DNA from: Lysobacter capsici
GTDB taxonomy: Bacteria > Pseudomonadota > Gammaproteobacteria > Xanthomonadales > Xanthomonadaceae
DNA: 64,000 nt
Assembly (NCBI RefSeq): GCF_014779555.2
Contig: NZ_CP094357.1
Span: forward strand, 4,154,001 to 4,218,000
Reading direction: 5' to 3'
Shown here: positions 1 through 24,300 of the stretch, in pieces
Position numbering within the stretch: the stretch's first letter is position 1
Layout: each line of letters starts with the position of its first letter
Position numbers and translations under genes: made by a program
The notes under the pieces: generated by a model
Seen by the model: the letters and a program-made list of their open reading frames with translations, nothing else
What the model was told of the DNA's origin: nothing
Databases searched by the model: none

Positions 1-6
1 GCCGCA

Positions 7-690
7 ATGTTCACGGGATAAGCGCTGCCGCGATGCTCCCTGTAGGAGCGGCGCGAGCCGCGACCGCGACACTGCGCTTGGGTCGTGACCTTTGGATCGC
101 AGCGCTTGGCGCAAGCGCTTGCTTCGCGGTACTCGCGTCATACCTGTGATGTCGCGGTCGCGGCTTGCGCCGCTCCTACAGGGGGCTGTCCGAACAATGG
201 GGGCAGCTGCCGCATCGATCCAAGCGACGGACGCCAGGCTGTTGGCCAGAATGTTCACGGGATAAGCGCTGTCGCGATGCTCCCTGTAGGAGCGGCGCGA
301 GCCGCGACCGCGACACTGCGCTTGGGTCGTGACCACTGGATCGCCGCGTCTGGCGCAAGCGCTTGCTTCGCGGTACTCGCGTCATACCTGTGATGTCTCG
401 GTCGCGGCTTGCGCCGCTCCTACAGGGGGCTGTCCGAACAATGGGGGCAGCTGCCGCATCGATCCAAGCGACGGACGCCAGGCTGTTGACCGAGATATTC
501 AAGCGAGAAGCGCTGCCGCGATGCTCCCTGTAGGAGCGGCGCGAGCCGCGACCGCGGCACTGCGCTTAGGTCGTAACCTCTGGATCGCCGCGTCTGGCGC
601 AAGCGCTTGCTTCGCGGTACTCGCGTCATACCTGTGATGTCGCGGTCGCGGCTTGCGCCGCTCCTACAGGGGGCTGTCCGGACAATGAGG
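7..690. repeat. Three tandem 244-bp units, each carrying a REP pair
   Basis: The same block recurs with an exact 244-bp period: the motif TGTAGGAGCGGCGCGAGCC starts at 41, 285 and 529, and its inverted partner ends near 180, 424 and 668. The first two units are almost identical. The third has a few changes and breaks off after about 690. Between the REP arms lies a conserved segment with CGCAAGCGCTTGC. No plausible gene is visible: the open frames here run straight through the palindromes. Confidence 0.9.
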
Positions 691-750
691 TGGGCATTCG
701 CGGCGCTTGGTGTGAGCGCTGGCTTCGCGTTATTTACGCCGTTGCCGTGG

Positions 751-782
751 TGCCGCGGTCGCGGCTCACGCCGCTCCTACAA
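751..782 (-). repeat. Single REP element
   Basis: A lone REP in the inverted orientation (GCGGTCGCGGCTCACGCCGC followed by TCCTACA) sits just downstream of the DUF2065 gene on its coding strand. It could act as a 3'-end stem-loop for the hfl transcript. No separate T-rich terminator is seen. Confidence 0.75.
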
Positions 783-809
783 GGGGCTATCGAAACCGCG
801 CGGCGGGCG

Positions 810-1001
810 TCAGCTGCTGCGCAAGACCCACAGCGCGATCACCCCGACCGCGACGACGATGCCGCCGACGATACGCAGTTGCTTGTCGGGTAGCGCCTGC
901 AATTGTTCGGCCGCGCGCTTCCAGCCGTTGGGCGCGACGAACAGGAACAGGCCTTCGAGCACTGCGACCAGGCACAGCGCTCGTATCAGTTCACCGGCCA
1001 T
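810..1001 (-). CDS. DUF2065 small membrane protein
   Basis: This 63-residue protein has two hydrophobic stretches (about residues 4-22 and 43-58) separated by a polar loop with the APNGW-type turn typical of DUF2065 (YjeT-like) proteins. It begins 6 bp after the hflC stop, so it is the last gene of the miaA-hfq-hflX-hflK-hflC cluster. DUF2065 genes are commonly found next to hflC; their function is unknown. Size and position agree with the family. Confidence 0.85.
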   Translation of the reverse strand: MAGELIRALCLVAVLEGLFLFVAPNGWKRAAEQLQALPDKQLRIVGGIVVAVGVIALWVLRSS

Positions 1002-1007
1002 GTCCGA

Positions 1008-1871
1008 TCAGCGATCGGACTTGAGGTATTGCAGGAACGGATCGTCGCGGTCCAGCACGATCACGCTCTGGCCGTCGGCGAAGGACTTGCGGTAGCTCTC
1101 CAGGCTGCGCTGGAAGGCGAAGAACGCCGGGTCCTTGTTGGCGGCAATGCCGTAGATGCGGGTGGCCTCGGCATCGCCCTCGCCGCGCGAACGCTGGGCG
1201 TCGCGCTCGGCTTCGGCCAGGATCACGGTCTTGTCGCGGTCGGCGGTGGCGCGGATCGCCTGCGCCAGTTCGAAACCTTCGGCGCGCAGCTGGCTGGCGA
1301 CCTGCAGGCGCTGCGACTTCATCTGGTTGTACACCGACGCCAGCACGTTGCTGTCCTGCGGCAGGTCGATGCGCTTGATCCGGATGTCCTTGATCTGGAC
1401 ACCCAGGGTCGCCGCGCCCTTGTTGATCGCGACCAGTTGTTTGCCGATCACCGCTTCGCGATCGCCCTTGACCACGTCGAGCAGCTTGAGCGAGTTGATC
1501 TCGTTGCGCAGCGAATCGCGGATGATCGGCGCCAGACGCTCGGCCGCGACGCTTTCGTCGCCGCCGGTGGCCTGGAAGAAACGGCGCATATCCTTGATCT
1601 GGCCCACGGCGAAGAAATCGACGCTGACGTCGAGCTTGTCGGCGGTCAGGTAACGCTCGGGCTCGGCCGGCAGGATCTTCAGGCGCAGGTCGAACACGCG
1701 CTGGCTTTCGATCAGCGGCCACTTGAAGTGCAGGCCGGGGCCAAGGTCGCTGCGCACCACGGTGCCCAGGCGGAAGATCATCGCGCTGTGACCGGCGTTG
1801 ACCACGAACATCGACCCCATCAGGGCCAACAGCAGGGCGACGCCCGCGGCAATCAGGGCGGGAACTCTCAT
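1008..1871 (-). CDS. hflC: Protease modulator HflC (SPFH/band 7)
   Basis: This 287-residue protein has an N-terminal membrane anchor (about residues 4-24) followed by an SPFH/band-7 domain and a charged helical C-terminal part rich in Ala, Glu and Arg. HflC pairs with HflK in a large periplasm-facing complex that surrounds and modulates the AAA protease FtsH. The start overlaps the hflK stop by 4 bp, so the two are probably translationally coupled. ftsH itself lies about 8 kb away in the same orientation. Confidence 0.96.
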   Translation of the reverse strand: MRVPALIAAGVALLLALMGSMFVVNAGHSAMIFRLGTVVRSDLGPGLHFKWPLIESQRVFDLRLKILPAEPERYLTADKLDVSVDFFAVGQIKDMRRFFQATGGDESVAAERLAPIIRDSLRNEINSLKLLDVVKGDREAVIGKQLVAINKGAATLGVQIKDIRIKRIDLPQDSNVLASVYNQMKSQRLQVASQLRAEGFELAQAIRATADRDKTVILAEAERDAQRSRGEGDAEATRIYGIAANKDPAFFAFQRSLESYRKSFADGQSVIVLDRDDPFLQYLKSDR

Positions 1872-2977
1872 CGCATCACCTCGTCACGGGTCTTCGGGCG
1901 CGTCGGTCGGCCGACATAGGGCACGGTGCTTTCGGTCGCGGTCACCGGGTTGAGCAACTCGGGTTGAGTCAGCGGCACGCTGACCGGACCGGGGGTGACC
2001 GCCACGCCGTTGCGATCGGCCATCGGCACGTACAGCACCTGGCGCGAATCGCCGCCGACGATCTTGCGGTTCTGGCTCAGCACGTCCTGCACGGTGTCCA
2101 GCCACATCCGCTTGCGGGTCACGTCGGGCGCGTTCTTGTACTGGTCGACCAGCAGCGAGAAGTGGGTCGCCTCGCCTTCGGCGCGGGCCACGGTCGAGGT
2201 CTTGTAGCCCTCGGCGGTGGTGCGGATGCGCTGGGCGTTACCGCGCGCTTCGGGCACGATCTTCTTGGCGTAGGCCTGGGCCTCGTTGATCGAGGTGGTC
2301 TTGTCGGCGTTGGCCCGCTGAGCTTCGTCGAACGCGTCCTTGACCTCGTCGGGCGGGCGCGCGTTGGGCAGGTTGAGCTCGGTGACGGTCAGGCCGGTCT
2401 CGTAATCCTTGAGCGAACCCTGCAAACGCTGGCGCACCTGGGTGGTCAGCACGCTGCGCGCGCCGAGCACGGTGTCCAGGTCGGAGCGGCCGATCTGCTC
2501 GCGCACCGCGCTCTGCGCGGCCTGCTTGAGCACTTCCTCGGGTTCGCGCGAACCGAACAGGTACTGGTACGGCGACTCGATCCGGTACTGGACGTTGATC
2601 TCGACGTTGACCATGTTGCCGTCGCGGGTCAGCACCGGCACGGTCTCGCTATAGGCCTTGCTCTGGGTCGCATTGACCTTGCGCACGCTCTCGATCGGCC
2701 ACGGCGCCTTGAAGTGCGGGCCGGGCTGGAGCACGCGCGAGAACACGCCGAAGCGCAGGACCACGCCGCGTTCCTGCTCGGTCACCAGCACGAAGCAGTT
2801 GAACACCATCCACAGGCCGACCAGCAACGCGACCCAGCGCAAGATGCCGCCGCCTCCGCCGCCGAACAGCCCGCGCAGCGGATCGATCAGCGCGTCGAGG
2901 CCGCGGCCTTGGGGTTTGCGTTGCCGCGACGGTCGGTTGTCGCCGGAATTGTCACTGCCGGGGGTGTTCCAGGCCAT
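1868..2977 (-). CDS. hflK: FtsH modulator HflK (SPFH/band 7)
   Basis: This 369-residue protein starts at MAWNTPGSDN, the conserved HflK start; the frame stays open about 100 bp further upstream, but that extension is not HflK-like. It has a Gly/Arg/Gln-rich N-terminus, a Gly-rich stretch (GGGGGG), one membrane segment (about residues 47-66), a band-7 domain, and a helical region with the AYAKKIVPEARG signature of HflK. It partners HflC to control FtsH access to membrane substrates. Its stop overlaps hflC. Confidence 0.96.
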   Translation of the reverse strand: MAWNTPGSDNSGDNRPSRQRKPQGRGLDALIDPLRGLFGGGGGGILRWVALLVGLWMVFNCFVLVTEQERGVVLRFGVFSRVLQPGPHFKAPWPIESVRKVNATQSKAYSETVPVLTRDGNMVNVEINVQYRIESPYQYLFGSREPEEVLKQAAQSAVREQIGRSDLDTVLGARSVLTTQVRQRLQGSLKDYETGLTVTELNLPNARPPDEVKDAFDEAQRANADKTTSINEAQAYAKKIVPEARGNAQRIRTTAEGYKTSTVARAEGEATHFSLLVDQYKNAPDVTRKRMWLDTVQDVLSQNRKIVGGDSRQVLYVPMADRNGVAVTPGPVSVPLTQPELLNPVTATESTVPYVGRPTRPKTRDEVMR

Positions 2978-3120
2978 GCCTGCTCCTAAAGAAGTGGACG
3001 CCAGGCGGAACATCCGATGTTCCGCCTGCTGCACCGGCCCGCGGCGGGGCCGGCACCGGACCGTGGCGTGGGGCGCCACGGAGATACGCGCGCGGGTTAC
3101 CGCGCGCGAACCTGTCGATT

Positions 3121-4419
3121 CTAGGTGGGGGCCTGAACGGTCTCAAGCAAGGGGCGCAATGCCTCGCCATTGGCCTGGGCGAACAGGCGCTCGGCGTCGG
3201 TCACCGCGAGGTCGACTTCGACCACCCAGCCGTGCTCGTCGGCCTGTTCGGAGCGCACCGCGCCGAGCTCGTGCAGGCGCGCGCGCAAACGCGCGTCCTG
3301 CGAGGCGATCCGCACGCTGCCGGTAACGTGGCGCAGTTGCAGGGCCTCGCCCAGCGCCTCGCGCAGCAGGTCCAGGCCCTTGCCGTCGCGGGCCGATACC
3401 CAGACCCGGTTCTTGCCCTCGCCCGGGCGGTCGATGCGCGGGGCCACGTCGTCGAGCCGGTCGATCTTGTTGAATACCAGCAATTGCGGCAAATCGCCGG
3501 CGCCGATATCGGCCAGCACCTCGTCGACCTGGGCGATGCGCTCGTCGCGCAGCGGGTCGGCGGCGTCGATCACGTGCAGCAGCAGATCGGCCTCGCGCGC
3601 CTCCGACAGGGTCGAGCGGAACGCGGCGACCAGGTCATGCGGCAAATCCCGCACGAACCCGACCGTATCGGCCAATACCGCGCCGCCACCGGGCAGATCG
3701 ATCCGGCGCACGGTCGGGTCGAGCGTTGCGAACAACTGGTCGGCGGCATACGCGTCGGCGCCGGTCATCGCATTGAACAAGGTCGACTTGCCGGCGTTGG
3801 TGTAGCCGACCAGCGCCACCCGCGGCAGCTCGCTGCGCATGCGCGCGCGGCGCATCTGGGTGCGCTGCACTTCGACCTTGTCCAGGCGCTTTTGCAGTTG
3901 CTCCAGGCGTTTTTGCAGCAGCCGGCGATCGGTTTCGAGCTGGGTTTCACCCGGGCCGCGCAGGCCGATCGAACCGCCGCGCTGGCGCTCCAGGTGGGTC
4001 CAGCCGCGGATCAGCCGGGTCGACATGTGCTTGAGCTGGGCCAGTTCGACCTGCAGCTTGCCCTCGGCGCTGTGCGCGCGCTGGGAGAAAATGTCGAGGA
4101 TCAGGCCGGTGCGGTCGACCACCCGCCGCTCCAGCAGCTTCTCCAGGTTGCGCTCCTGGCCCGGCGACAGCCGGTGGTTGACCAGGATCAGGTCGGCGCC
4201 GCTGGCGTCGGCCGCGGCCTTGACCTCGTCGAGCTTCCCGCTGCCGATGAGGATCGCCGCATTGGGCTTGTCGATGCGCGCGGTGATGACCGCGGCCACC
4301 GTGGCGCCCGCCGACCGCGCCAGATCGGCGAATTCTTCCAGAAGGTCCTCATCCGGCGCACCGCCGGCATGAGGCTGGATCAGCAGGGCGTGTTCGCCCT
4401 TCTTGGAACGCTCAAACAT
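3121..4419 (-). CDS. hflX: Ribosome-associated GTPase HflX
   Basis: This 432-residue protein has an N-terminal HflX domain with the SGKLDEVK and NHRLSPGQERNLE motifs, then a coiled-coil linker (QKRLEQLQKRLDK), then a G domain: P-loop GYTNAGKSTLFN, DTVGF switch II, and NKID for guanine recognition. HflX binds the ribosome and rescues or splits stalled or heat-damaged 70S particles. It lies between hfq and hflK, the standard order. About 140 bp separate it from hflK, leaving room for a separate promoter. Confidence 0.97.
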   Translation of the reverse strand: MFERSKKGEHALLIQPHAGGAPDEDLLEEFADLARSAGATVAAVITARIDKPNAAILIGSGKLDEVKAAADASGADLILVNHRLSPGQERNLEKLLERRVVDRTGLILDIFSQRAHSAEGKLQVELAQLKHMSTRLIRGWTHLERQRGGSIGLRGPGETQLETDRRLLQKRLEQLQKRLDKVEVQRTQMRRARMRSELPRVALVGYTNAGKSTLFNAMTGADAYAADQLFATLDPTVRRIDLPGGGAVLADTVGFVRDLPHDLVAAFRSTLSEAREADLLLHVIDAADPLRDERIAQVDEVLADIGAGDLPQLLVFNKIDRLDDVAPRIDRPGEGKNRVWVSARDGKGLDLLREALGEALQLRHVTGSVRIASQDARLRARLHELGAVRSEQADEHGWVVEVDLAVTDAERLFAQANGEALRPLLETVQAPT

Positions 4420-4506
4420 CGGGTATGGGCAACGAGTGGAGAGTGAGAACTAATGCAGATGGAGGCGACGCACCGGTTTCTCAATTCTCCCCGCCCGCGG
4501 CTCGCA

Positions 4507-4779
4507 TCATTCCGCTTCGTCGCCGCCGTCGCTGCCGTCGGCCGACTGGACATAGCCGCCGCCCGGGCCGACGCGGACGTTGCGCGCGGGGACGACGGTG
4601 GAAATGGCGTGTTTGTAGACCATCTGACTGACGGTGTTGCGCAACAGCACCACGAACTGGTCGAACGATTCGATCGTGCCCTGCAGCTTGATGCCGTTGA
4701 CCAGGTAGACCGACACCGGTACGCGTTCGCGACGCAGCGCATTCAGGAAAGGATCCTGCAGGGATTGCCCCTTAGACAT
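4507..4779 (-). CDS. hfq: RNA chaperone Hfq
   Basis: This 90-residue protein has the conserved start [13 protein letters not shown], the Sm1 region ([11 protein letters not shown]), and the Sm2 motif YKHAIST, whose Tyr, Lys and His line the U-rich RNA pocket. The C-terminal tail is Gly-rich then acidic (ending GDEAE); an acidic tip of this kind is known in Hfq to help release RNA. Hfq forms a hexameric ring that pairs small RNAs with mRNAs. The downstream neighbour is hflX. Confidence 0.98.
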
Positions 4780-4952
4780 CTTCTAGTTCCCCAGCATGTT
4801 CTAGTTATTAGGAACGGCGCGCCCTGCCCTGCGGTGCCCCGAAGGCAGGTGCTTCCGTATCGCCGGCTGTTGTCCCCACAGGGGCGACCGCCCGATGTTA
4901 ACGCAAGTCCAAGCAAACATTGCGACCCGGTTCCGGGTTTGCGCGCTCCATT

Positions 4953-5939
4953 CTAAGCGGCGTGCCCCGCCCCGCGCAGCCGGGCGCCGGCGAACAGCCT
5001 CAAGGCATGCTCCAGTTCGGCCGCGTCGCGCAAAGGATCGAACCAGCGCGCGTCAAGTTCGCCGCGCAGCCAGGTCAGCTGGCGCTTGGCCAGCTGGCGG
5101 GTGGCGTAGATGCCGCGATCGCGGAACTCGGCCGCCGGGTAAGCGCCGTCCAGATGCTCCCAGGCCTGGCGATAGCCGACCGCGCGGATCGCCGGCAGGT
5201 CCAGCGGCTGCGGATGTGCCTGCAACTGCGGCAACGCGCGCAGGCCGCGGACTTCATCGAGGAAACCCTGCGCCAGCATCGCGTCGAAACGCTGCTCGAT
5301 GCGGCCGTGCAGCACCGCGCGCTCGGCCGGCGCCAGCACCAGCTTGAGCACCCGATACGGCAATCGCGGCGGCGGCGCCTGCTCGCGCCAGTGGCTGATG
5401 CTGCGGCCGGACAGGCGATAGACCTCGAGCGCGCGCTGGATGCGCTGGGCATCGGTGGCGTGGATACGCGCGGCGGCCCGCGGGTCGATCCGGGCCAGCT
5501 CGGCGTGCAGCGCGGCCCAGCCGCGTTGTTCGGCCTCGATGCCGAGCTGCGCGCGCATCGCCGGATCGGCCTGCGGCATCTCCGACAGCCCCTGCAACAA
5601 AGCGTGGAAGTACAGCCCGGTGCCTCCGGCCAGGATCGGCAGCCGCCCGCGCGCGGCGATCGCGTCCATGGCGCGGCGCGCGTCGAGCGCGAACTCGGCA
5701 GCCGAATACGGCTGCCACGGCTCGCGCACGTCGATCAGGTGATGCGGCACCGCCGCCTGTTCCTGCGCCGACGGCTTGGCCGCGCCGATGTCGAGGCCGC
5801 GGTAGACCAGGGCCGAGTCGACGCTGACGATCTCCGCATCCAGCCGCCGCGCCCACTCCAGCGCGAGCGCGGTCTTGCCCGAGGCGGTCGGCCCCATCAG
5901 GGCGATGGCGAGCGGGCGTGGATCGGCGGAAACGTTCAT
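4953..5939 (-). CDS. miaA: tRNA dimethylallyltransferase MiaA
   Basis: This 328-residue enzyme adds the dimethylallyl group to A37 of tRNAs reading UNN codons. The P-loop [11 protein letters not shown] lies near residues 15-25, followed by [14 protein letters not shown] and the acceptor-binding [10 protein letters not shown]. Start MNVSADPRP was chosen because the residues before it (the frame is open another 117 bp) are unrelated to MiaA and overlap the start of the repeat array. The C-terminus has TWLRGE. It is the first gene of the hfq-hfl cluster. Confidence 0.96.
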
Positions 5940-6043
5940 TCGCGATGCGGGGTCATGCGCGGTGCGGGCCGCGGCGGTGGAATCAGCCGGCAGACTCGCA
6001 CAGCCGGGTTGATGACGAAAGCGCCGCAGCGTCCGGCGCGAGC

Positions 6044-6121
6044 AGTGGACAACCACGGCGGGCGATCACCTCGCTTGCGCACAAAAGCTGTGGAGAACCG
6101 CTGGGGCAAGCCTGTTGATAA
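6044..6121 (+). other. Loose DnaA-box-like 9-mers upstream of miaA
   Basis: Three direct-orientation 9-mers resemble the high-GC DnaA box TGTGGACAA or the classical TGTGGATAA: AGTGGACAA at 6044, TGTGGAGAA at 6089 and TGTTGATAA at 6113. Each differs from a consensus form by one base. They lead into the array of inverted pairs that starts at 6189 and lie in the miaA upstream region. Binding by DnaA is inferred from similarity only. Confidence 0.45.
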
Positions 6122-6188
6122 GCCCATCCGGCCCTTACGGCGCAACGCTTCGCGACTGTTTGTCGGTTTTTTGACCAAGCCGTTACGG

Positions 6189-6211
6189 TTGTCCACACAG
6201 CCTGTGGACAA
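6189..6211. other. Perfect inverted pair of TTGTCCACA boxes (unit 0)
   Basis: TTGTCCACA, 5-bp spacer CAGCC, then its exact inverse TGTGGACAA. TTGTCCACA is the DnaA box form favoured in GC-rich bacteria and differs from TTATCCACA at one base. This is the only copy with both boxes complete over nine bases. Confidence 0.65.
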
Positions 6212-6427
6212 GCCTGCGGACAGTTTCCAGATCACCCCCTTCGAAGCGTTGCGGTACAAGCATTGCAAGAGGTTTGGCGAAAATTTCGCCAGCGATTTTC
6301 GCTTGACGTGCGAGCGCTGATCGGCATCGCCGCGGTGGCCGGCGGCGATGCAGAAGCGCTTGGCGAATGCAAGCGTTTCGAACATTCCGCAGCCGGCGAT
6401 CCGCCGAGGCCCGCGGCCGCTCGCGCC

Positions 6428-6449
6428 TGTCCACAATGCCTGTGGACAA
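6428..6449. other. Inverted DnaA-box-like pair (unit 1)
   Basis: TGTCCACA, spacer ATGCC, TGTGGACAA. The left box has C instead of T at its first base; the right box is a full TGTGGACAA. The AT-rich box of this unit follows at about 6508-6529. Confidence 0.6.
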
Positions 6450-6597
6450 AGCTGCGGACACACGCATTGCAATCGGGTTTCACGCCTTGCGTGGCAAGGG
6501 CTGGGCAAGTTTGGCTAATTTTTGATCACCCGCCGATACCTCGCTGATATTCCGCCGCGGCTCAAATTCCGCACGGGCAGTCAAGCGTTTTGGCTTC

Positions 6598-8335
6598 CTG
6601 TAGGAGCGGCGTGAGCCGCGACCGCGAATCATGGCTGCGACGTAGCTGCGAAGTGGTGGTCGCGGCTCGCGCCGCCTCTACAGGGGGCTCTCGGGTTTTC
6701 GCGTAAGCGTGCGGGCAAGCGCTGGTCGAATCTCGTCTGGCAACTCCCGTCGCCAGGCCATCGCGATGTCCACATTGCCTGTGGGCAAAGCTGCGGATAC
6801 ACACCTTGCAATCGGGTTTCACGCCTTGTGCGGCAAGGGCTAGATAAGTTTGGCTAATTTTTGATCACTCGCCGATATCGGCCGGCGACTCAAATGTCAT
6901 CCGCACAGTCAAGTGTTTCGTATCCCACTGCAGGAGCGGCGCAAGCCGCGACCGCGAACCATGCCGACGACGCAGGTGCGAGGTCGCGGTCGCGGCTCGC
7001 GCCGCTCCTACAGGAAGCGCTCGGATTTTCGCGGAGGTATTCGGGGCAAGCGCTGGTCGAATCTCGTCTGGCAACTCCCGTCGTCAGACCATAGCGATGT
7101 CCACATTGCCTGTGGGCAAAGCTGCGGATACACGCGTTGTAATCGGGTTTCACGCCTTGTGCGGCAAGGGCTGGATAAGTTTGGCTAAATTTTGACCACG
7201 GCTGATATCGGGCCGCGGTTCAAATTTCGCGCGGGCAGTCAAGCGTTTTTTCTCCTGTAGGAGCGGCGTGAGCCGCGACCGCGAACCAAGCCCGCGACGC
7301 AGGTGCGAGGTCGCGGTCGCGGCTCACGCCGCTCCTACAGGGGCGCTCGAGTTTTCGCGGAGGTATCCGGGGCAAGCGCCGGTCGAATCTCGTCTGGCAA
7401 CTCCCGCCGTCAGACCATCGCGATGTCCACATTGCCTGTGGGCAAAGCTGCGGATACACAACTTGCAATCGGGTTTCACGCCTTACGCGATAAGGGCTAG
7501 GCAAGTTTGGCTAATTTTTGATCACCCGCCGATATCTCGCTGATATTCCGCCGCGGCTCAAATTCCGCACGGGCATTCAAGCGTTTTTTCTTCCTGTAGG
7601 AGCGGTGTGAGCCGCGACCGCGAACCAAGCCCGCGACGTAGGTGCGAGGTCGCGGTCGCGGCTTACGCCGCTCCTACAGGGGCACTCGGTTTTCACGGAG
7701 GTATGCGGGGCGAGCGCTAATCAAATCCCGCCTGGCAACTATCATCGTCAAGCCATCGCGATGTCCACATTGCCTGTGGGCAAAGCTGCGGATACACACC
7801 TTGCAATCGGGTTTCACGCCTTGTGCGACAAGGGCTGGATAAGTTTGGCTAATTTTTGATCACGCGCTGATATCGGGCCGTAACTCAAATGCCATCCACA
7901 TAGTCAAGTGTTTCGTATCTCCCTGTAGGAGCGGCGCAAGCCACGACCGCGAACCATGCCGACGACGTAGGTGCGAAGTCGCGGTCGCGGCTCACGCCGC
8001 TCCTACAGGCCCCGTGTTTTCGCGTAGGTGTGCGGCCAAGCGCCGGTCGAATCTCGTCTGCAATTACCGTCGTCAGGCCATAGCGATGTCCACATTGCCT
8101 GTGGGCAAAGCTGCGGATACACGCCTTGCAATCGGGTTTCACGCCTTGTGCGGCAAGGGCTGGGCAAGTTTGGCTAATTTTTGATCACTCGCCGATAGCG
8201 GCCGGGGACTCAAATGTCATCCGCACAGTCAAGCGTTTCGTATCCCTCTGTAGGAGCGGCGCAAGCCGCGACCGCGAACCATGCCCACGACGCAGGTGCG
8301 AGGTCTGGGTCGCGGCTAGCGCCGCTCCTACAAGG
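6598..8335. repeat. Six REP pairs inside the array
   Basis: Convergent REP arms (forward TGTAGGAGCGGCGYRAGCCG, then its inverse about 50 bp on) occur near 6598-6686, 6929-7015, 7255-7341, 7595-7681, 7923-8009 and 8249-8333. The GTAG foot and GC-rich hairpin match the REP type spread through Xanthomonadaceae intergenic DNA. The sequence between arms is variable. No REP-associated transposase gene lies in the window. Confidence 0.85.
6767..8108. other. Five imperfect inverted DnaA-box-like pairs (units 2-6)
   Basis: Each has TGTCCACA, spacer TTGCC and TGTGGGCAA, at 6767-6788, 7098-7119, 7424-7445, 7762-7783 and 8087-8108. All five share the same A-to-G change in the right box and the same spacer, so they were probably copied from one another. 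The left box is intact over eight bases in every copy. Confidence 0.55.
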
Positions 8336-8414
8336 GCACTCGGAGGTTCGTGAATGCAGGCAAGGCACGCGATGGCCGAACGCCAATCTGGCAATGATCG
8401 TCAGGCCGTCACTA

Positions 8415-8436
8415 TGTCCACAACGCCTGTGGACAA
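8415..8436. other. Inverted DnaA-box-like pair (unit 7)
   Basis: TGTCCACA, spacer ACGCC, TGTGGACAA. As in units 0 and 1, the right box keeps the full consensus. The outermost copies are thus closer to consensus than the five inner ones. The AT-rich box after it (8499-8515) is altered to TTGGCTAATTTTTAGCCAC. Confidence 0.6.
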
Positions 8437-8601
8437 GCCTGCGGACACACGCCTTGTATCGGGTTCCACGCGTTGCGCCGCAAGGCATGCGCAAGATTGG
8501 CTAATTTTTAGCCACTCACATCGACGCATGCTCGCGCTCGCGGATCGACCGCCTCAGGGCGGCCTCATCGGCGACACGCCTGGAGCGTCCTCAACGCCAG
8601 C

Positions 8602-9501
8602 TTATTCGTCGTCCGGCCACTTCGGCATCGAAGGCGTCGACGCGCGCTTGGGCGCTTGTTGCGCGGCCACGGCCGCCCAGACCTTGAGGGCGTCGATGGT
8701 GGCGGCGACATCGTGCACGCGCAGCAGCTTGGCGCCGCGCTGGGCCGCGATCAGGTGCGCGGCCACCGAGCCCGCCACGCGATCGCGCGGATCGTCGCGG
8801 CCGGTGATCTGGCCGATGCTGCGTTTGCGCGAAAGTCCGGCCAATACCGGCACGCCGAGTTCGGCATAGCGTTCGAGCTGCGCGAGCAAGGTCAGGTTGT
8901 GCTGCAAGGTCTTGCCGAAACCGAAGCCGGGATCGACCACGATGCGCTTCTTGTCGATCCCGGCCATCTCGGCGGCGAAGATGCGCTCGGCCAGGAAACG
9001 ATGCACCTCGGACACCACGTCGTCGTAGCTCGGCTCTTGCTGCATCGAACGCGGCTCGCCCTGCATGTGCATGAGCACCACCGGGACGCCGAGCGATGCG
9101 GCCATGTCGAGCGCGCCGTCGCGGCGCAGGGCGTAGACGTCGTTGATCAGGCCGGCGCCGGCTTCGATCGCGGCGCGCATGACCTCGGGCTTGGAGGTGT
9201 CGATGCTGATCGGCAGCGCGGTTTCGCGCGCCAGGCGCTCGATCACCGGGATGGTGCGGCGCAGTTCTTCTTCGAGCGGCACCTCGTCGGCGCCGGGACG
9301 GGTGGATTCGCCGCCGATGTCGAGCGCGTCGGCGCCCTCTTCGGCCAGCCTGAGGCCGTGCGCGACCGCCGCCTCGGTCGTGTCGTGCGCGCCGCCGTCG
9401 GAGAACGAATCGGGCGTGACGTTGACGATGCCGAGCACGCGCGGGCGATCGAGCAACAGGCGGCGGCCGTTGCAGTCCAGGGTCGGGGCTAGGTCGAACA
9501 T
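8602..9501 (-). CDS. folP: Dihydropteroate synthase
   Basis: This 299-residue enzyme condenses dihydropterin pyrophosphate with p-aminobenzoate in folate synthesis and is the sulfonamide target. Visible signatures are GIVNVTPDSFSDGG near residue 24, DIGGESTRPGA, the SIDTSKPEV strand, and DPGFGFGKT for pterin and phosphate binding. The C-terminus has a short extension after the LRVHDVAA end of the TIM barrel. It lies downstream of ftsH, as in the usual rlmE-ftsH-folP order, separated by 282 bp with a terminator and a REP. Confidence 0.97.
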   Translation of the reverse strand: MFDLAPTLDCNGRRLLLDRPRVLGIVNVTPDSFSDGGAHDTTEAAVAHGLRLAEEGADALDIGGESTRPGADEVPLEEELRRTIPVIERLARETALPISIDTSKPEVMRAAIEAGAGLINDVYALRRDGALDMAASLGVPVVLMHMQGEPRSMQQEPSYDDVVSEVHRFLAERIFAAEMAGIDKKRIVVDPGFGFGKTLQHNLTLLAQLERYAELGVPVLAGLSRKRSIGQITGRDDPRDRVAGSVAAHLIAAQRGAKLLRVHDVAATIDALKVWAAVAAQQAPKRASTPSMPKWPDDE

Positions 9502-9667
9502 GGGCGGTTCCCAGGGGGCGTCGAGAACCCGAATGCTACCCGCTTGGCGTGGGCCGGGCCGGTCGCTAATGGCGGCGGCGCGGGTTGCGGGCGTGGCATC
9601 TCGCCTATGTGCGACGGGGGCTCTCGTTTTGCGGCCTGACTTGCTGCTTGCGTCGTTACGCCTGTTT

Positions 9668-9699
9668 CGCGGTCGCGGCTTGCGCCGCTCCTACAGGGG
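9668..9699 (-). repeat. Single REP element
   Basis: CGCGGTCGCGGCTTGCGCCG followed by CTCCTACAGGG, a lone REP arm between the ftsH terminator and folP. Confidence 0.75.
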
Positions 9700-9721
9700 A
9701 TGTGGGGAATCGTCGGGACGT

Positions 9722-9756
9722 GAAAAACAAAAACGCCGGGGAGTGCCCGGCGTTTT
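9722..9756 (-). terminator. Intrinsic terminator after ftsH
   Basis: The stem AACGCCGGG with loop GAGTG and CCCGGCGTT is followed, on the minus strand, by TTTTGTTTTT. It lies 28 bp past the ftsH stop, so folP probably has its own promoter or depends on read-through. Confidence 0.85.
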
Positions 9757-9783
9757 GTTGGAGCGCGTTGAACGCAACTTCGG

Positions 9784-11679
<1,896 letters not shown>

Positions 11680-11837
11680 GTATTTCCTACCCTGCGACCC
11701 CACCCGAAGTGGGAAGTCTCGTGTCCTCCGGCGCCTTGTGCGCCGGCGGTAACGCCCAGATTGCCATACAGCCACGCCGCGCACCTGCCGAGATTCGGCC
11801 GGTGGCAGCCTCGGCGCAATCACCCGATCGTCATGGA

Positions 11838-12485
11838 TCAGGTCATCGCCGCCTTCTTGCCCTGCGCCAGCGCGTACACCTCCGGCGACCGCTTGCGCGA
11901 CGCCGCCGGCTTGCGGATCGAGACCTTGGCGTAGCGACGGCGCAGTTCGCGCACGTAATCGTCGAAGCCCACGCCCTGGAACAGCTTGATCAGGAACGTG
12001 CCGTCGACCTTCAGATGCCGGTCGGCGAAATCCATCGCCAGCTCCGAAAGGTGCATCGCTCGCGGCAGGTCCACCGCGTCCACACCGCTCATATTGGGGG
12101 CCATGTCGGACAGAACAAGGTCCACCGGCTGCCCGCCCACGCTGGTCTCCAGCTGGGCCAGGACCTCGTCTTCACGGAAATCGCCGAGGATGAACTCGAC
12201 CCCGGCCAAGCCGGGCATGTCCAGGATGTCCAGGGCGATGACCCGGCCGGGCTGGCGCGGGTTCAGCCGGTCCAGCTCGCTGCGCAGCCATTGCGACCAG
12301 CCGCCCGGGGCGGCGCCCAGGTCGACCACGATCATCCCGGGCTTGAGCAGACGGTCGCGTTCGACCAGTTCCTCGAGTTTGTAGGCCGCGCGCGAGCGCA
12401 AGCCTTCGGCCTTGGCCTTCTTTACGAAGGGGTCGGAGAAGTGTTCCTTGAGCCAGCGCTGGCTGGATTTGCTTCGGGTCGCCAT
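11838..12485 (-). CDS. rlmE: 23S rRNA (uridine-2'-O)-methyltransferase RlmE
   Basis: This 215-residue SAM-dependent enzyme methylates U2552 in the ribosomal A loop. It begins [15 protein letters not shown], the family start; the open frame continues upstream through repeats, so the longer version is rejected. Motif I is [14 protein letters not shown], and SDMAPNMSG carries the catalytic Asp of the K-D-K-E set. The partner Lys residues are in FVKKAKAEG and FLIKLFQG. It is upstream of ftsH and divergent from yhbY, as in Escherichia coli. Confidence 0.97.
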
Positions 12486-12874: not shown

Positions 12875-12969
12875 CCGGGAATGGGGAATCGGGAATAGGG
12901 AATCGGAAAGCCTCCCGCCCTGCTCCGCTCCGGTTTTGCCGATTCCCGATTCCCCATTCCCGATTCCCG
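12875..12969. repeat. GGGAATC-rich inverted repeat
   Basis: Roughly 32-bp arms made of GGGAATC and GGGAATAG steps (12875-12906) and the complementary ATTCCCG steps (12939-12969) can form a long hairpin between yhbY and the next gene. Related heptamer runs appear at 22318 and 24218. Confidence 0.8.
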
Positions 12970-24196: not shown

Positions 24197-24217
24197 GGGG
24201 TGGGGTCTCTGGGGGTG

Positions 24218-24284
24218 GGAACGGGGAACGGGGAACGGGGAACGGGGAATCGGGAATCGGGAATCGGGAATCGGGAATCGGGAA
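24218..24284. repeat. GGGAACG/GGGAATC heptamer run
   Basis: Nine or so consecutive heptamers, first GGGAACG then GGGAATC, lie 22 bp upstream of the ispF start. Copy number could vary by slippage. The position is within the ispF leader. Confidence 0.9.
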
Positions 24285-24300
24285 CAGCGTACTTACCTAT

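Follow-up and report, generated by a model that had tools for sequence, protein, structure and literature searches.

The window, by which we mean the entire 64,000-nucleotide stretch of Lysobacter capsici DNA that was analyzed, carries a group of repeated elements in the gap between folP (8602 to 9501, minus strand, TIGR01496), the upstream neighbor, and miaA (4953 to 5939, minus strand, TIGR00174), the downstream neighbor. The L. capsici genome is 6.24 Mb in one contig, with dnaA at its start. Eight clear copies of the element and one variant copy were found in the folP-miaA gap. The original prediction, made from the window alone, had described eight inverted pairs of DnaA-box-like sequences with a constant 5-bp spacer, and all eight were recovered in place, as sites of the form TGTCCACA-N5-TGTGG(A/G)CAA at plus-strand positions 6190, 6428, 6767, 7098, 7424, 7762, 8087, and 8415. 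These pairs are real and far above chance expectation, none having appeared in 100 shuffles of the window. An A-to-G change said to be common to the right-hand boxes of the inner five pairs was likewise confirmed, these boxes reading TGTGGGCAA.

In all eight units the boxes form a rigid core: box II follows box I after 5 bp and box III lies another 3 bp on, both facing the opposite way from box I. By this box geometry, the cores lie on the plus strand at 6189 to 6223 (unit 0, TTGTCCACA-CAGCC-TGTGGACAA-GCC-TGCGGACAG), 6427 to 6461 (unit 1), 6766 to 6800, 7097 to 7131, 7423 to 7457, 7761 to 7795, and 8086 to 8120 (units 2 to 6, which carry the altered box II), and 8414 to 8448 (unit 7, with a consensus box II). 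Box III is weak in all eight units (7/9), and box II of units 2 to 6 is off consensus. The third box had escaped the original prediction, as had REP-like inverted pairs in the spacers and a variant ninth unit, unit -1, which lies nearest miaA (6075 to 6121, plus strand). This unit has four boxes in a 9-5-9-3-9-3-9 arrangement (TTGCGCACA-5-TGTGGAGAA-3-CTGGGGCAA-3-TGTTGATAA), with box I opposed to box II and boxes II, III, and IV head to tail; it agrees with the three-box core in part, having a box III of 5/9 and the extra box IV. It lies 114 bp upstream of unit 0, and its boxes II and IV are kept in 24 of 27 folP-miaA loci, where they precede the first core by 114 bp (115 bp in one locus). A repeat search found that units 1 to 7 are spanned by a tandem repeat of ~325 bp (6428 to 8509, plus strand, 6.3 copies). 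REP/BIME-like inverted pairs (GTAGGAGCGG) occur in the array spacers between 6600 and 8332, and REP-like GTAGGAGCGGCG inverted pairs, as in the array spacers, are also present in a 244-bp tandem repeat at 6 to 687 (2.8 copies).

The AT-rich box reported after each pair turned out to be a predicted Fis-like site, a 15-bp palindrome with an AT-rich center that begins 50 to 52 bp past box III, about 63 bp past box II. Scored on the six fixed positions of the Fis consensus GnnYAnnnnnTRnnC, as given in PMC4245941, seven of the nine units match 6/6 at an offset of 50 to 51: units 1 (6513 to 6527), 2 (6852 to 6866), 3 (7183 to 7197), 4 (7509 to 7523), 5 (7847 to 7861), 6 (8172 to 8186), and 7 (8499 to 8513, offset 50). 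The other two, unit -1 (6162 to 6176, offset 52) and unit 0 (6276 to 6290), match 4/6; none of these sites is assigned a strand. Across 121 unique array cores, a set in which up to three entries are reverse palindrome readings (L085, L093, and L129) and which takes in the L093, L094, and L097 second clusters, conservation was at least 1.4 bits at 24 of 27 box positions. From the boxes to the far edge of the Fis-like site it was lower but clear, and outside these limits, on either side, it fell abruptly to 0 to 0.5 bits, indicating a unit length of ~101 bp.

In Escherichia coli, DARS1 and DARS2 convert ADP-DnaA back to ATP-DnaA. IHF is needed by DARS2 and not by DARS1, and the essential Fis sites of DARS2 lie beyond its IHF sites, not between these and the core. 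Read from the MG1655 record, DARS1 is TTATCCACT-5-TGTGGATAA-3-TGTGTATTA and DARS2 is TTATTCACC-5-TGTGGATAG-3-TGTGAAGAA; the eight array units have the same three boxes, the opposed box I, and the spacings of 5 and 3 bp. According to a review (PMC5742627), box spacing is equal in DARS1 and DARS2, both have a box I that faces boxes II and III, and DARS1 is active without IHF in vitro, its minimal element being 101 bp. A second review (PMC10380432) describes the head-to-head arrangement of boxes I and II as functionally essential in DARS and DARS-like sequences as conserved in many proteobacterial genomes.

DARS1, in the bioD-uvrB gap, thus resembles the array units in its 9-5-9-3-9 geometry and in the size of its minimal element, but it is a single copy with other neighbors and has no Fis-consensus match at offset 51. 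At offset 49 after box III of DARS1 (L015, core at 1908), where the Lysobacter Fis-like site starts, there is a TTGGCG, possibly a relic or a product of chance. DARS2, in the rppH-mutH gap, has the same core geometry and also uses Fis; it differs in being a single copy with Fis beyond IHF, whereas the array units place the Fis-like site at 50 to 52 and have no IHF site. Our own scan of DARS2 placed an imperfect IHF site at offset 74, a position shared with some priA-linked-type relatives, and a second site 3 bp ahead of it; the assignment is ours, and it fits the 3-bp distance between IBS1 and IBS2 in the published description.

We regard the folP-miaA gap as probably holding a multicopy tandem DARS array that would raise DnaA reactivation. 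The identity of the boxes as DnaA boxes, as first proposed, is well supported, and the order-wide element described below mostly carries exact TTATCCACA. DARS itself is known; the tandem, copy-variable arrangement is what is new, and in a literature search of limited reach none of the listed titles and abstracts dealt with DARS in this order, beside priA, or as a tandem array. Homologues of three proteins are encoded in L. capsici: DnaA, 55% identical to its E. coli counterpart; Hda, which scores above the curated cut-off; and Fis, with 50% over 74 residues. What speaks most against DARS2-like behavior is that the units have no IHF site and a weak box III; the off-consensus box II of units 2 to 6 and a Fis placement unlike that of DARS2 also speak against a DARS reading.

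It is unlikely that the array is instead a titration sink, soaking up DnaA and leaving its nucleotide unchanged. Boxes this dense would also titrate DnaA: 19 of the 23 box-like 9-mers in the window (at most one mismatch to TTRTCCACA) fall within 6040 to 8520, and exact TTRTCCACA is otherwise rare, with 21 matches in the 6.24-Mb genome, four of them in the array, versus 44 for the reversed control pattern. For a sink, however, boxes suffice; a fixed 5/3/51-bp layout and an opposed box I are not needed, and neither box III nor the Fis-like site would be accounted for. E. coli datA, to which the array had at first been likened, is also a DnaA-box cluster outside oriC, but its biochemical effect is the opposite one, ATP hydrolysis (PMC10380432). 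A scan of the datA region for the core geometry gave one match, a good II-III-like pair at a gap of 3 (box II 9/9, box III 8/9) with a box I of just 5/9; as both E. coli DARS elements carry all three boxes in this geometry, a datA-like sink or a secondary origin is the poorer fit. A secondary origin of the oriC type would be expected to have head-to-tail box arrays next to an AT-rich unwinding element; in the units, box I is opposed to box II, and boxes II and III run head to tail. The datA-type arrangement around a single IHF site was not found in the array, whose layout differs and whose units have no IHF site.

The possibility that the unit is an ordinary dispersed repeat was not borne out in the L. 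capsici genome, in which the search gave just two further single loci, one copy beside priA and a third flanked by a sensor kinase and by a LuxR-type regulator. Close inverted pairs among exact TTRTCCACA matches occur at three places in this genome, always with a 5-bp spacer. A search with boxes I and II matched 53 of 60 relatives, with no match for the control. When the spacer was freed to 0 to 30 bp, it was 5 bp in 126 of 150 rows among the matches listed (a palindrome is counted once per strand); of the remaining 24 listed rows, at least 12 contain a 5-bp-spaced pair, and the reversed control gave 7 matches in 60 genomes. Box III followed at a gap of 3 in 23 of 25 order-level loci fetched on boxes I and II alone (L017 to L041, the only set used for this test, each oriented by its better box III), the exceptions being L020 and L036, below 7/9. 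For family- and class-level loci, the search pattern itself required TGYG at box III. This core pattern was present in 145 of 150 family genomes, usually as one copy, and in 188 of 377 class genomes, with no control match in either; within the class set no other genome had more than five copies, compared with ten in the L. capsici genome. With a looser pattern, 2 of 15 re-searched genomes still had no core.

Among 30 loci from the boxes I-II search, tblastn placed priA beside the element in 17 (16 of the 25 order-level loci) and the third locus in four, with neither in nine. Other neighbors include an exonuclease I-type gene (L024 and L025), a membrane dipeptidase (L023), a PLP enzyme (L021), and ftsK with lolA (L134); the element is therefore not bound to one gene. 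In another genus (L135 and L136), three DARS cores adjoin priA, a separate small multiplication.

Comparison of the folP-miaA gap covered the window and 20 cluster regions from 17 other genomes, with G004 and G009 outside it. The boxes proved to be kept in relatives: the gap held 2 to 9 cores in all 18 genus genomes examined, the window included. Seventeen of the 20 cluster regions are flanked by folP and miaA, and their cores all point the same way when reverse palindrome readings are left aside; second clusters without folP or miaA occur in L093, L094, and L097, ~57 to 70 kb from the folP-miaA array. The second cluster of L094 adjoins an alkaline phosphatase-family gene. Genome-wide, 20 genus genomes have 3 to 11 core matches each, differing between sister species. 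A sister genus has 3 to 4 cores at folP-miaA in 6 of 6 genomes, and another genus has one core beside miaA in three genomes picked for an extra match (L137 to L139) and one match genome-wide in three further genomes. For named records, 72 of 80 folP loci were scored, and the gap had at least two cores in 10, one in 6, and none in 56; for the 22 scored records titled Lysobacter, these counts were 8, 5, and 9. The array thus marks a clade and not the genus name. In 18 Stenotrophomonas loci, the folP and miaA matches are separated by 2 to 11 bp and there is no core. Among the genus genomes, larger ones tend to have more cores (Spearman 0.55, p 0.012, n=20), in a comparison that ignores kinship and counts one reverse reading (G017).

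Copying without selection, in which one old DARS was duplicated neutrally in tandem and slippage or recombination alone maintained the copies, appears improbable as an account of the array. All identities used to judge this are from gapped alignment with shuffles, as ungapped values understate indel-bearing spacers, above all in the window. The cores are 0.84 to 0.95 identical within each of 23 arrays (shuffled, 0.45 to 0.52), and the next 66 bp are 0.57 to 0.79 identical, whereas the spacers are no more than 0.10 from the shuffled level in 21 of the 23; it follows that across the clade the cores are kept and the spacers turn over. The presence of the array at folP-miaA throughout the genus genomes examined also argues against neutral duplication. 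In its favor, unit number varies widely, and in the window and the sister L078 the spacers are alike as well (0.69 versus ~0.50 shuffled), which marks young copies, so that core identity alone is no proof of selection there. In the window, units 2 to 6 are recent ~325-bp copies that have the same weaker box II and contain REP-like pairs in their spacers. The earlier suggestion that a decayed copy was amplified fits these five units, and the near-shuffled spacers of the 21 other arrays speak against it elsewhere.

DnaA/Fis control of the neighboring genes, on the miaA-hfq side or at the folP end, is very unlikely, in spite of the constant orientation relative to miaA and the 114-bp register of unit -1 and unit 0 next to miaA in most loci, since elsewhere the element stands beside priA, the sensor kinase/LuxR-type pair, the exonuclease I-type gene, and ftsK-lolA, and up to nine cores over 2.5 kb would be odd for a promoter. 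An RNA hairpin or attenuator formed by the palindrome has next to no probability: boxes I and II are complementary and the A-to-G change retains a G-U pair, but this reading explains neither box III nor the Fis-like site, no Rfam family fitted at the gathering score in window positions 1 to 12000, and there was no excess of terminators (1 promoter and 1 terminator found versus 0.5 and 3.0 in shuffles). Two sub-threshold Rfam matches, both to animal microRNAs, fall on REP hairpins of the array spacers.

Returning to the DARS reading, we compared candidate Fis and IHF sites at the single elements and in the arrays, with thresholds of at least 12 of 13 for Fis and at least 8 of 9 for IHF. Among 24 order-level elements, the IHF consensus was present in 0.88 (0.18 in shuffles) and the Fis consensus in 0.29 (0.002 in shuffles). 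The best IHF match lay at 85 to 87 or 74/75 in 23 of them and the best Fis match at 51/52 or 40 in 21, and these positions form two classes one helical turn apart. Among 100 array cores, the Fis consensus was present in 0.15 (0.002 in shuffles), and IHF sites showed no excess over shuffles (0.08 versus 0.075). The priA copy of L. capsici, which has the core and a 4/6 Fis-like site, carries the DARS2-type fixed-distance IHF site as a perfect consensus (TATCAAGGCTTTG) at offset 86. With no IHF site in the array units and one in the single priA-linked copy, IHF-dependent timing may rest with the latter.

If the array acts as DARS, ADP-DnaA would bind boxes I and II head to head in each unit, box III would stabilize this complex, and ADP would be released, leaving apo-DnaA to reload with ATP. 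Each unit would then feed active initiator to oriC, perhaps under growth-phase control by Fis, and many copies of the unit could raise or buffer DnaA reactivation. More tentatively, and with less confidence than we place in the DARS assignment, it is possible that changes in the copy number of the array make it an evolvable dial on the DnaA activity cycle. The ancestor would have been an IHF-free pair next to miaA, with unit -1 and unit 0 separated by 114 bp, and this pair would have been multiplied in this genus to 2 to 9 cores, with second clusters in some species; DARS dosage under Fis, not IHF timing, would set reactivation, and unit -1 would be the entry or nucleation site. If the DARS reading is true, the array may act as a multiplied dial for the start of chromosome copying, and a genus with 3 to 11 DARS-type cores per genome would offer a natural dosage series relating DnaA recharging to initiation timing. 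The order-wide core-Fis-IHF phasing likewise provides a precise architecture testable outside the enterics. A search of the genome for dif gave no match, and we therefore claim no replichore position for the array.

Other repeats were noted in the window away from the folP-miaA gap. The hexamer GGGCAC occurs about 22 times between 55848 and 55977, and short heptamer-type repeats are present at 24217 to 24285 and 12876 to 12969.
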